Source of the DNA: Dehalogenimonas formicexedens
GTDB taxonomy: Bacteria; Chloroflexota; Dehalococcoidia; Dehalococcoidales; Dehalococcoidaceae
Length of the DNA stretch: 64,000 nucleotides
Reading direction: 5' to 3'
NCBI RefSeq assembly: GCF_001953175.1
Contig: NZ_CP018258.1
Span: 1-64,000, forward strand
The position numbers and the translations under genes are program-made. Within the stretch, counting starts at the first letter, position 1. The number at the start of each line of letters is the position of its first letter. The notes beneath the pieces are model-generated. The model saw only the letters and a list, made by a program, of their open reading frames with translations. It searched no databases and had not been told where the DNA came from. This document shows positions 14,332 to 46,563 of this stretch, piece by piece.

Positions 14332-15009
14332 ATCCTCGTTCCTCCCGCATTTTTCGATTCGACCGCAACTTTAGTCTAGAACGTGTCCGACGGCTTACAT
14401 ATCCGTATTTTCACCTAATTTTCGGTGCTTTCGCTCCTACTTTTCCCCAACCTTGTCTTTGCGAGGAGGGCGAAGTTAACCTGTCCCGGCCTGCCCCGAT
14501 GTGTCGGGGAACTTGTCGAAGGGTGGCAATCTTCCTTGCATAGCCTATTTTGTCATCCTGCGCGCAGCGGAGGATCCACAACCTTTTGTCTTTGCGAGGA
14601 GTGAAACGACGTGGCAATGTGCACTTGGTTCGACCTTTCCCCCTTTGAAAAGGGGGACTAAGGGGGATTTGGCCGCAAATCATCGCGCGTCTTCAGCGTG
14701 CCCTTTTGTCACTCCGGCGCTCGCCCCGTACTTAGTCGGGGAAAGCCGGAAGTCAAGCCAACCCTGGATGTAGGGGCGACGTAGGCGTCGCCCAGCGATT
14801 TCACCCCTGGGATGGATCACTCGTCGCCAACTCCTTCCTCTTAATCTGTCTTTGCGAGTCCCGCCACGTCGGGACGTGGCAATCTGATTTGGTTTGGGGT
14901 GCTTTTTCCTAATCGCCCGCTGATAGCTGATGGCTTTCACAAAATATTCCCCCAAAAACGTCACCAGACGCTTGACAACTCTCTGAACGCCCGTGCTATA
15001 ATATGCCGC
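14332..15009. repeat. Repeat island 4 and promoter of copy A
   Basis: This gene-free stretch holds TCTTTGCGAGGAGGGCGAAG (near 14456), TCTTTGCGAGGAGTGAAACG (near 14588) and TCTTTGCGAGTCCCGCCACG (near 14851) elements, CCCCCTTTGAAAAGGGGGAC near 14640, and the second copy of the 185-bp direct repeat (14704-14888). From about 14934 the sequence changes to the conserved promoter block of the copy A ORF. Confidence 0.85.
14934..15002 (+). promoter_or_regulatory. Conserved 19-bp-spacer promoter, copy A
   Basis: TTGACA (14972-14977) and TATAAT (14997-15002) are both perfect, with a 19-bp spacer. The 38 bp upstream (AAATATTCC, CAAAAACGTC, AGACGC words) match the blocks before copies B and C. The ATG at 15010 is 7 nt after the -10 box, so the transcript is probably leaderless. 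Confidence 0.75.
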
Positions 15010-15315
15010 ATGAACAGCACATGTTTTCTGCGCGGTACTATGGACAACCCTCGCTCCAGCCCCGCGTTTCCGGATTTTCTTGCCGCGCCGGACAAACGAA
15101 TAGCTTTGATACCATTTGATGTGAAAAACAATTCCCACGTTTGGAGTAAACGTAAAAATTCCGGATTCGTTTCAGAAAAAAGGCTTCACCGGAAAGCAAA
15201 AATACTCGAGACGCGCAGCTCGAAACTTGGGACTCTGTCCGCGTCACCGAGTCGTTCCAGTCGTTTTTTAGGTGCATTTGGAGTTTCTGGTCGGAAGCCG
15301 ATCGCTGACAGCTGA
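15010..15315 (+). CDS. Unknown basic protein, copy A of a three-copy family
   Basis: I recognise no known family. The 101-residue product is rich in Ser, Arg and Lys. It has the segment SGFVSEKRLHRKAKI near the middle and PSRSSRFLGAF near the C-terminus. Comparable segments occur in the copies at 22.4 kb (FRNKNLSHKNEKRI, then SRSSRFNMC after an interruption) and 46.1 kb (SKDFKKHARTI, SRLSRFYVQC). The start follows a perfect promoter with no room for a ribosome-binding site. The last codons run into the repeat word GCTGACAGCTGA, so its natural end may be lost. Function is unknown. Confidence 0.45.
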   Translation: MNSTCFLRGTMDNPRSSPAFPDFLAAPDKRIALIPFDVKNNSHVWSKRKNSGFVSEKRLHRKAKILETRSSKLGTLSASPSRSSRFLGAFGVSGRKPIADS

Positions 15316-15361: not shown

Positions 15362-15391
15362 TTGGTAGTATTCCTCCGGGGGTAGTATAAT
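15362..15391 (+). promoter_or_regulatory. Promoter of the TPR-gyrA operon
   Basis: TTGGTA (15362-15367) and a perfect TATAAT (15386-15391) are 18 bp apart, 95 bp before the TPR gene start. Confidence 0.6.
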
Positions 15392-18799: not shown

Positions 18800-18818
18800 T
18801 TCTCAAGAACACTTGTTC
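18796..18818. promoter_or_regulatory. LexA operator (SOS box)
   Basis: GAACACTTGTTC at 18807-18818 matches the GAAC-N4-GTTC box known from Gram-positive-type LexA. An overlapping perfect palindrome AGTGTTCTCAAGAACACT at 18796-18813 gives a second half-site set, so two LexA dimers could overlap. It covers the region between the -10 box and the start codon, which indicates autorepression. Confidence 0.75.
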
Positions 18819-21693: not shown

Positions 21694-22081
21694 CGGGGGC
21701 CTCCTTTTTGAGCGGTGTGGCTATGGATTATAGACTCTCGGCGGTTCACGGGCAAACTTTGTCGGGGATTTTGCTTTTGTTTATTGCATTCTGGCACATG
21801 TTAAAACGACTGGAACGACTCGATGCGGCAATGCAAGTTGAACCCATCCATTGCCCAATCCAAGTTGGTACGGGGACGAACTCATACGAGAACATCTTCT
21901 TGCCCTCACCCTACCCTCTCCCGCGCGCCCTCACCCTCAAACCCTCTCCCAAAGGGAGAGGGAATAAAAAGGAATGGCCATTGGTACGCGGGCGAGGAGA
22001 TAGTGTACGCATTTCGCGAAAACAATGGAAACAATTCCCCGAGGCGGAAACGGAATAATACCAATAATCCAATAATACCAA
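21694..22081. repeat. Repeat cluster interrupting copy B
   Basis: Apart from the 3' fragment of copy B at about 21801-21829, these bases are repeat words: ACCCTCTCCCAAAGGGAGAG near 21941, ACCAATAATCCAATAATACC microsatellite-like words from about 22059, and the start of the ATTCCTGCCTTCGCGGGAAT element just beyond. No gene is visible. Confidence 0.75.
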
Positions 22082-22369
22082 TTATCCAATACTACCAATC
22101 CCCTGCTCCCCTGGATTCCTGCCTTCGCGGGAATGACAAAACGCCTTAGCGATTCGTTTTTCGTTTTTATGCGACAAGTTTTTATTGCGAAACGAATCCC
22201 CGAAATTCAGCTTTGGCGCAATCGTAAGATTCGATTTGAAAAAGGAACCATAACGAACCCTGATCCAATCTCCGGCAGCCGAGACTTGAATCATGGCAGA
22301 TATCTCCGACCGAGATGTTCCGGTCAACAATCCGGCTTCCTGATTGTACAGGTGTGCTAATCTATCCAT
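21801..22369 (-). pseudogene. Copy B of the unknown basic-protein family, split by repeats
   Basis: An open frame of 95 codons runs from ATG 22369 to 22082, but its last 19 codons (CHSREGRNPGEQGIGSIG) are a translated dispersed repeat. About 300 bp further on, at 21829-21801, the same strand reads SSRSSRFNMCQ, the C-terminal motif of copies A (PSRSSRF) and C (ASRLSRF). The simplest reading is one gene broken by repeat insertion. The N-terminal part is MDRLAHLYNQEAGLL. Its start lies 6 nt after a perfect -10 box. Function is unknown. Confidence 0.45.
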
Positions 22370-22375
22370 GCGGGT

Positions 22376-22442
22376 ATTATAGCACGGGTGTTTCTGGTAG
22401 TGTCAAGCGTCTCGTGTCGTTTTTGTGGGAATATTTTTTGAA
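22376..22442 (-). promoter_or_regulatory. Conserved 19-bp-spacer promoter, copy B
   Basis: On the minus strand, TTGACA (22406-22401) and TATAAT (22381-22376) are 19 bp apart. About 36 bp upstream of the -35 box match copy A closely (words AATATTCCC, CAAAAACG, AGACGC). Downstream, TAGCACACCTGTAC resembles the perfect dyad TAGTACACCAGTACTA of copy C. Confidence 0.75.
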
Positions 22443-22878
22443 AGTTCACAATTTACAGTGTCAGTAAACAGCCGGCAAAATGGGTGGCACCGAGATTCTT
22501 CGTCCCGACTATGTCGCGGACTCAGAAAGACAAATTGGATGAACCTTCAGCGGTTAGCAATTATCGGCCTGATCGGCAGCAAAGGATGAGGCGGGCGGGT
22601 TTACCGGGAAGGGCACGGCATACCGCGCGGCTACGGCGACAGGTGGAGATAAAAAGAGGGAATAATTGTCAATGATGGACGACCAGGCGGGCGACCGGCA
22701 GGTATGGCGCTATGCTTAATCAAGACAGTTGCTGCATTACCCGATTCCCGCCGTCAGCGAGAGAGGGGTTAATTCACCTTTTTCGATCGATTCTCATTTA
22801 TTTTCGGAACGTTGTGTTCAGGGTGGTTTAGAGATTCTTCCGGAAGCTTCGCTCGGGTCAGAAACATATCCCTGAAAC
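22443..22878. repeat. Intergenic region between copy B and hisS
   Basis: No convincing gene. Around 22490-22540 is a diverged GAGATTCTTCG...ACTCAGAAAGACAAA element. At 22747-22864 is the inverted partner of the 118-bp segment at 11251-11369. The part between (22550-22740) is unique GC-rich sequence that I cannot assign. Confidence 0.7.
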
Positions 22879-45861: not shown

Positions 45862-46170
45862 TCAGCAGCCTGGTTTTATTTTGAATTTGCATTGTACGTA
45901 AAAACGACTCAAACGACTTGCTGACGCATGGACCGCGCCGAATTTCAAACGTTTAGTCACACTGCCAATTGTTCGGGCATGCTTTTTAAAATCTTTCGAA
46001 ACGACACGATTGAAACCTGCGATATTCACGATTGAGTCGTTTGGCGCGGACAATTCATTCAATGCGTTCATTTCAAACAAGTAGAGAGGCATCAGTTTAT
46101 AACCGTCAGTCAATGTTTTGATTCGAGGGGTCTCCGGCAAATAATAGTACTGGTGTACTAATATACCTCA
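45862..46170 (-). pseudogene. Copy C of the unknown basic-protein family, start lost
   Basis: The frame is open from a TTG at 46140 to 45862 (92 codons). It carries SKDFKKHARTIGSVTKRLKFG and the C-terminal ASRLSRFYVQCKFKIK, which matches copies A and B. At the place where copies A and B have ATG (6-7 nt after the -10 box), this copy reads TGA (46170-46168), and an in-frame TAG follows soon after. It may still be made from the TTG, but I treat it as a decaying copy. It is AT-richer than the surrounding genes. Function is unknown. Confidence 0.4.
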
Positions 46171-46176
46171 GCTGGT

Positions 46177-46247
46177 ATTATAGCACCAGTGTTCTCTAAG
46201 ATGTCAAGCGTTTCGTGTCGTTTTTGGTGCCATTTTGAAAATATTTT
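46177..46247 (-). promoter_or_regulatory. Conserved 19-bp-spacer promoter, copy C
   Basis: TTGACA (46207-46202) and TATAAT (46182-46177) on the minus strand are 19 bp apart. AACGACACGAAACGC upstream matches copy B. A perfect dyad TAGTACACCAGTACTA lies just downstream (46158-46143). Confidence 0.7.
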
Positions 46248-46563
46248 TGTAATAAGCTCCTGGAGATCAACAGTCTCCATCAAACTAGACATATGCAACG
46301 TGCCCAGCTACAGCATTGAGATAACGATGGATACGGTGTCCCAAGACTTTGGAAGTGATGAGGCGGGCGAGCGGCCGCTCGCCCCTACCATAAACCGGGC
46401 GGGCGGGTTAAAAACCCGCCCCTACAGCGAACGTTTGGCGTAGGATGCCTCGCTCCCGCTCGCGGCGGGAGAGAAGGAAGTTTCGTTATAAGGGAGGAAG
46501 ATTGCCACGCCTTCGTTTGCATCACGAGCAAGCCCGATGGAATCGAGGCTCGCAAAGACAGTT
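46248..46563. repeat. Repeat island downstream of the radical SAM gene
   Basis: It contains a GAGCGGCCGCTC palindrome within GGCGAGCGGCCGCTCGCCCC near 46367-46386, GGCGGGTTAAAAACCCGCC near 46402-46420, and a TCTTTGCGAG...GGCAATCT element on the minus strand (about 46503-46560). A 31-bp near copy (46423-46453) of the radical SAM gene's 3' end (46565-46595) is also present. No gene is visible. Confidence 0.8.

Follow-up and report, generated by a model that had tools for sequence, protein, structure and literature searches.

In Caulobacter, GafY, the activator of the gene transfer agent (GTA), binds its main cluster and some 18 other promoters (PMC11150451). In GTA regulons (RcGTA and CcGTA, with GafA or GafYZ with IHF) terminase and capsid genes of phage origin are retained by vertical descent, stand at one chromosomal locus or several and are served by one kind of promoter, with accessory promoters in Caulobacter, and in these respects such regulons resemble the promoter population described here from the window, a stretch of 64,000 nucleotides of Dehalogenimonas formicexedens DNA, and from the genomes of its genus. 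Unlike them, our system has yielded only genes for TerS, TerL, an HTH protein, portal, scaffold, capsid, adaptor and two other products, its particles and DNA transfer would be hypothetical, and it shows consensus -35 and -10 elements in 30-40 copies, which stand mostly at housekeeping operons and in another phylum.

In REPIN-RAYT systems a sequence population is tied to a low-copy, vertically inherited gene (PMC8049555). Here, likewise, short hairpin-bearing non-coding elements match a low-copy, vertically inherited mobile-element protein, but this is a terminase pair and not a tyrosine transposase, replication by the terminase pair is only hypothesised, and each element includes a complete promoter of sigma-70 type, with a strand bias in favour of genes. 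With mobile promoters and promoter-bearing MITEs our elements share the location of a promoter within a dispersed repeat; they differ in a lineage-specific block that is common to domesticated phage operons and selected at orthologous sites, and no insertion sequence parent of the repeat was found. We would regard the GTA and REPIN-RAYT systems as nearest precedents only, and claim membership in neither family.

From our analysis we consider it rather probable that the window holds part of a dispersed promoter population, which derives from, and shares a regulator with, a vertically inherited terminase-capsid (GTA-like) module. One trans-acting factor would recognise the block and switch on the phage-derived module, like a GTA activator, and the same factor may add transcription to about 30 chromosomal operons (gyrA, uvrA, ligA, mutS, valS, leuS, dnaE and others). 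The copies would go back to promoter-terS(-terL) cassettes that were duplicated and afterwards lost their coding part by decay, so that the reading frames of the window would be decayed or random frames beginning at the old leaderless terS start.

The promoter block and its copies

The analysis rests on genome-wide searches and on the stretches around the copies in eight genomes of the genus (G000-G007), of which G000 is the window's own genome and G004 its sister, which may be close to D. etheniformans, a species reported to form the closest pair with D. formicexedens (PMC13390414). In the window the promoter is present as follows:

14953..14977, + strand: copy 1, upstream block CAAAAACGTCACCAGACGC and -35 element TTGACA (14972-14977)
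14985..15002, + strand: copy 1, box 1 GAACGCCCGTGC (14985-14996), abutting the extended -10 element TGC-TATAAT (14997-15002)
22401..22425, - strand: copy 2, upstream block CAAAAACGACACGAGACGC and -35 element
22376..22392, - strand: copy 2, box 1 (AACACCCGTGC) and extended -10 element TATAAT (22376-22381)
46202..46226, - strand: copy 3, upstream block CAAAAACGACACGAAACGC and -35 element
46177..46194, - strand: copy 3, box 1 GAACACTGGTGC and extended -10 element TATAAT (46177-46182), without a leaderless start codon

The original prediction of three perfect TTGACA/TATAAT pairs 19 bp apart was correct (14972-15002 on the + strand, 22376-22406 and 46177-46207 on the - strand), and the upstream words that it took for conserved are found in all three window copies. 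The constant 19-bp spacer did not hold, for the spacer in G000 is 19 bp in 13 copies and 20 bp in 24, and in G005 mostly 17-18 bp. A start codon 6-7 nt after the -10 was described for each copy, and it stands there in copies 1 and 2 but not in copy 3, whose frame starts at 46140 with TTG.

The consensus of the aligned copies is AAAATATT-N-CCAAAAACGACACGAAACGC, TTGACA, a 19- or 20-bp spacer ending in GWACNCNNGTGC, and TATAAT; many of them also have a box 2, GNACNNNNGTAC, where the old start codon lies. Conservation is strongest upstream of the -35, the GTGC at the end of box 1 is invariant (30/30 aligned copies), and the extended -10 (TGC-TATAAT) is present in 34 of the 41 copies of G000 and in all scored copies of G004, G003 and G007. 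Boxes 1 and 2 were not found in the G005 copies, so that only the block, the -35 and the tendency to an extended -10 are common to all. The conserved object is a promoter, made up of an upstream block of ~19 bp, TTGACA, a spacer of 19-20 bp and an extended -10. On direct reading of the sequence, the gene 3' of each window copy would have a promoter of its own nearer the start codon, for instance TTGGTA-17-TATAAT at 15363-15391; this, like the absence of the boxes from G005, counts against the reading preferred here. Short dispersed repeats (TGTCTTTGCGAG..., GTCTTTCTGAGTC..., TAGGGGCGGGTTTTTAACCCGCC) are seen upstream of the copies, at 14610-14900, 22480-22530 and 46410-46560 of the window.

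When the whole G000 genome was searched for TTGACA-N15-21-TATAAT, most matches had a common spacer end and belong to one family. The three copies first described became 41 in G000 with a relaxed block pattern, against 0 with the reversed-pattern control, so that the block is far beyond chance. The same pattern, whose controls stay close to zero, finds 40 copies in G004, 30 in G007, 28 in G003 and 0 in the other four genus members. Another block (CCAAAACCCCATTGACA, CCAAAATCCYATTGACA) has 35 copies in G005 and 28 in G006 and was not found in the other six genus genomes, and a third flavour has at least 13 copies in G002 and at least 6 in G001. Every genus member (8/8) has a lineage-specific version of the block, one flavour per genome or sister pair, in totals of 28-41 in six of the eight and of at least 6 and at least 13 in the remaining two. 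A few copies cross the flavours, such as genome position 118799 in G000 and 828401 in G007. Exact-block scans of wider collections of genome contigs and viral contigs returned no match.

Two arrangements in G000 may be recorded apart. At 1496058, 1496221 and 1496384 (L026) three blocks stand in tandem with a 163-bp period, the first two having a TTTGTCTTTCTGAGC...GAAGAATCTC repeat in place of the -10. At 244858, 1638967 and 1860074 (L036, L037, L038) there is an unrelated three-copy promoter family (AAAGCTAAAATACCCTCRCCCTATTGACAG...TATAAT, 16-bp spacer) with a strong hairpin and T-run directly 3' (CCTCGTGAGC...GCTCACGAGG), which looks like a three-copy small RNA gene.

Reading frames and repeated modules behind the promoter

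Downstream of the promoter copies the window contains the following frames and modules:

15010..15315, + strand: copy 1, open reading frame at the leaderless position, 101 aa, judged not to be a real protein gene
15116..15200, + strand: copy 1, hairpin module M3 (the 'basic mid segment')
15251..15267, + strand: copy 1, M5 GTCGTTCCAGTCGTTTT, the source of 'SRxSRF'
22082..22369, - strand: copy 2, open reading frame at the leaderless position, 95 aa, not conserved
22156..22245, - strand: copy 2, M3
21803..21819, - strand: copy 2, M5, past the stop of the reading frame
45862..46140, - strand: copy 3, open reading frame with TTG start, 92 aa, judged not to be a real protein gene
45901..45917, - strand: copy 3, M5

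The original prediction saw in these frames a three-copy family of basic proteins, a claim given up here because orthologous frames are not conserved and the segments in common are DNA repeats, M3 and M5, read in varying frames. Copy 2 is the window copy that can be compared with its orthologous G004 locus, and the local BLOSUM62 score there is 17; four terminase-small-subunit pairs between G000 and G004 score 403, 592, 602 and 659, most other pairs are at background, and the few at 66-188 have M3 or another repeat sequence in common. At the site orthologous to copy 2, upstream of ilvE, G003 and G007 have an intact terminase-small-subunit-like frame. None of the three window frames gave a Pfam match over the cut-off. 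As judged from the sequence, they would be frames that arose by chance or decay across repeated DNA. The comparison of orthologous frames leads us to reject a genuine protein family of three members.

A wider family of leaderless small basic proteins seems to us highly improbable. It would account for a start codon 4-14 nt past the -10 in 29 of the 41 G000 copies and for the four terS-type frames conserved between G000 and G004, but not for the background scores of most other orthologous pairs, nor for the reading of box 2 in two frames (MNVSTPVQ and MDKLAHLY), and the listed G005 copies, terS carriers excepted, have short frames only (2-70 aa).

The segments that the prediction took for common do exist, the basic mid segment being M3 and 'SRxSRF' being M5, both of them as DNA and, in copy 2, with M5 outside the frame. 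M3 is a module of ~90 nt, with 66 of its 67 matches on the promoter strand, and it is read in different frames. Its helices are 83-85% paired and their covariation is above that of most shuffles (3/500), with few two-sided changes, which is no more than suggestive of a structured RNA. An Rfam search of five loci with copies other than those of the window found only a tRNA-Sec adjoining one copy, and on this result a known RNA family was rejected.

M5 (GAGTCGTTYCAGTCGTTTTT) consists of two half repeats, xxYGTTYC-xxYGTTTTY. It has 61 matches on the promoter strand downstream of 121 copies and 0 on the opposite strand; in G000, 14 of its 18 matches lie on the same strand, either in terL or no more than 0.9 kb past a block in the downstream direction. 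At genome position 423681 the DNA of the copy 1 M5 is found again, within terL. The 17-23 bp of M5 come back almost exclusively 3' of the block and without the remaining terL, and M5 is for this reason more likely a site than a simple terL remnant. In a tail-like gene (L217, L218 and L219, from G004, G003 and G007) M5-like DNA was seen within the coding sequence, where it reads SREGFVSFVL, SRQGIVSIVL and SRQAVVSVVL, while G005 has SRVPYVKAAA there, as though the gene had taken up the site.

Terminase and capsid genes

In a few copies the frame at the leaderless position is intact and has the motif G.P.GN.NA..HG, which is absent from the three window frames, and for these few intact frames elsewhere leaderless starts are plausible. 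They match terminase small subunit families of PHROGs (phrog_370, 6e-8); at some of these loci terL follows, and this next gene matches the terminase large subunit (phrog_2, 2e-16); phrog_509 and phrog_38 are further phage terminase families matched. TerL has conserved motifs, Walker A (ARQGGKNE), Walker B (LLLEVDEAQD) and nuclease, and is found in 28 of the 32 good genomes of a 61-genome set of relatives, mostly as a single copy. Among the phage proteins found, the TerL of Bacillus phage vB_BboS-125 is closest, at 32% identity. A TerL scan returned no relative from the collection of genome contigs and one contig from that of viral contigs. Broken terL fragments at 90155 and 724998 of G000 (L156; L230, L231) suggest earlier terminase copies, now decayed.

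An HK97-family capsid (PF05065) exceeds the curated cut-off in seven of the eight genus genomes, and in all seven lies downstream of the genome's own-flavour block on the same strand. Its operon runs from HTH through portal, scaffold, capsid and adaptor to a protein of 590-650 aa and lastly a small protein; portal, capsid and adaptor are confirmed by Pfam, and portal and capsid by PHROGs too. In G003 and G007 the operon stands ~8 kb from terS-terL. The dN/dS is 0.07-0.32, which indicates that these phage-derived genes are kept by selection. Conservation of such genes under purifying selection, by which a GTA may be recognised, was thus found in the genus (TerL 8/8, capsid 7/8). The window's own genome has terS-terL, and portal and capsid were not detected in it; it has lost the portal-capsid operon. 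As G000 nevertheless has 41 well conserved copies, the making of particles cannot explain their upkeep there. No further tail genes were present in the stretches read, no integrase or replication genes were recognised by eye among the reading frames of the L217-L219 and L221 clusters, and no prophage was seen around most copies.

The terS upstream region carries its own genome's flavour in each genome examined, and the flavour of the dispersed blocks matches that of the resident terS-terL promoter and, where present, of the HTH-portal-scaffold-capsid operon promoter. A more far-reaching interpretation, which we offer tentatively and hold to be on the doubtful side, is that Dehalogenimonas and other Dehalococcoidales have a GTA-like system of minimal capsid and terminase, in which the dispersed M5-bearing promoters would be its regulon or its packaging or recognition sites. 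M5 sites occur also inside terL and the tail-like gene.

Movement, selection and a common regulator

In G005 a discrete unit of 601 bp is present at two unrelated loci with 97.7% identity and with 11-bp inverted ends (AAAAATAAATG...CATTTATTTTT), and there are further non-orthologous pairs of 475 bp at 90% in G005 and of 576 bp at 92% in G004. These near-identical units suggest past mobility, and a match to a mobile-element end, named in advance as a reason to abandon the prediction, was in part found in them, at unrelated loci of a sister genome. Discrete ends and identical units, as of REPINs or MITEs, are clear for a few copies only, and no clear target-site duplication was seen at the G005 loci L185 and L191. 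At L076 of G004 and L017 of G000 the order is promoter - terS - M3 - remnant of the terL C-terminus, which points to a decayed promoter-terS-terL cassette. A terL-bearing copy ending in M3 or in an inverted end was not seen, and the model of an autonomous element is without its key proof. About eleven G005 copies (L157, L179, L181, L182, L184, L186-L189, L192, L197) have in common a second, inverted repeat beyond the element, GAATTGTTGCTTTGAATCAAAACTC...TCAAAACAATTC.

It may be argued that the promoter is part of a non-autonomous element of MITE or REPIN type that still moves, copied around the genome by the vertically inherited TerS-TerL or by an unseen recombinase, and that its conservation reflects copying and not regulation. 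The near-identical units, the tandem triplet of G000 (1496058-1496384), the restriction of M3 and M5 almost to the promoter strand downstream of the block, and a block flavour that tracks the resident TerS-TerL would all fit such an element. We consider it unlikely, in view of what is seen at orthologous sites: 27 positions are common to G000 and G004, and at these the block keeps 91% identity against 40-53% for the flanks and the remainder of the element. Copying alone does not leave a block so well preserved in a unit that has otherwise drifted to background. Neither target-site duplications nor a linked transposase were seen. Eight positions common to G000 and G007, and four to G000 and G005, likewise indicate a slow turnover. 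On this comparison of sequences the block is under purifying selection.

The orientation of the copies also speaks against mobility as the sole cause. Of the 163 scorable copies, 139 have the longest nearby downstream gene on their own strand and 24 have it on the other (p=7e-21, an upper bound on the evidence, as the same locus in several species is not independent), and the upstream gene shows no bias (73 vs 84). Together, the identity of the block and this bias support a working promoter. Among the genes downstream, with names assigned by eye from the sequence, are gyrA, ychF, ilvE, mutS, leuB, ligA, uvrA, valS, leuS, argF and dnaE in G000, and uvrB, ligA, leuS, alaS, nusA and gatB in G005.

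A selected regulatory block in common makes an unseen common regulator, as originally proposed, probable; its proposed manner of action, MerR-type bending, is not retained. MerR-regulated promoters have a spacer of 19-20 bp with a dyad centred in it. Here the spacer varies (19/20 in G000, 17-18 in G005), and the dyad GWACNNNNGTGC lies away from the middle of it, directly against the extended -10. Conservation, moreover, peaks upstream of the -35.

The block could also be the site of an ordinary global regulator of SOS/LexA type, unrelated to the phage genes, with terS-terL and the capsid operon as two of its targets, which we judge quite improbable. Box 1, GWACNNNNGTGC, and box 2 resemble the LexA box GAACACTTGTTC ahead of lexA (18807-18818), and the genes that follow the copies include uvrA, ligA, mutS, gyrA and dnaE. 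However, LexA needs GTTC, and the invariant GTGC of box 1 coincides with the TGC of the extended -10; lexA itself is without the block, the boxes are absent from G005 despite the block family there, and a block that differs among species of one genus would be unusual for a LexA-type site. A LexA/SOS operator proper (GAACNNNNGTTC) was rejected, as box 1 ends in GTGC and not in GTTC, and lexA itself has its own box.

Our literature search found no paper in which Dehalogenimonas and terminase occur together, and, to judge by title and abstract, none of the papers it listed on GTAs with Dehalococcoides or Chloroflexi seems to describe a GTA in them. How reductive dehalogenases are disseminated is an open question in the group of Dehalogenimonas. 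If the module is active, it would be a GTA of the Chloroflexota through which genes such as these might spread, a route open to testing, and the GTA-like reading, if true, would give organohalide-respiring bacteria a route of horizontal transfer. If the promoter population described here derives from the terminase-capsid module and shares its regulator, about 30 housekeeping operons would be under a phage-derived switch. Quite apart from this, its change in step with the resident phage-derived locus is an unusual natural case of concerted promoter evolution.
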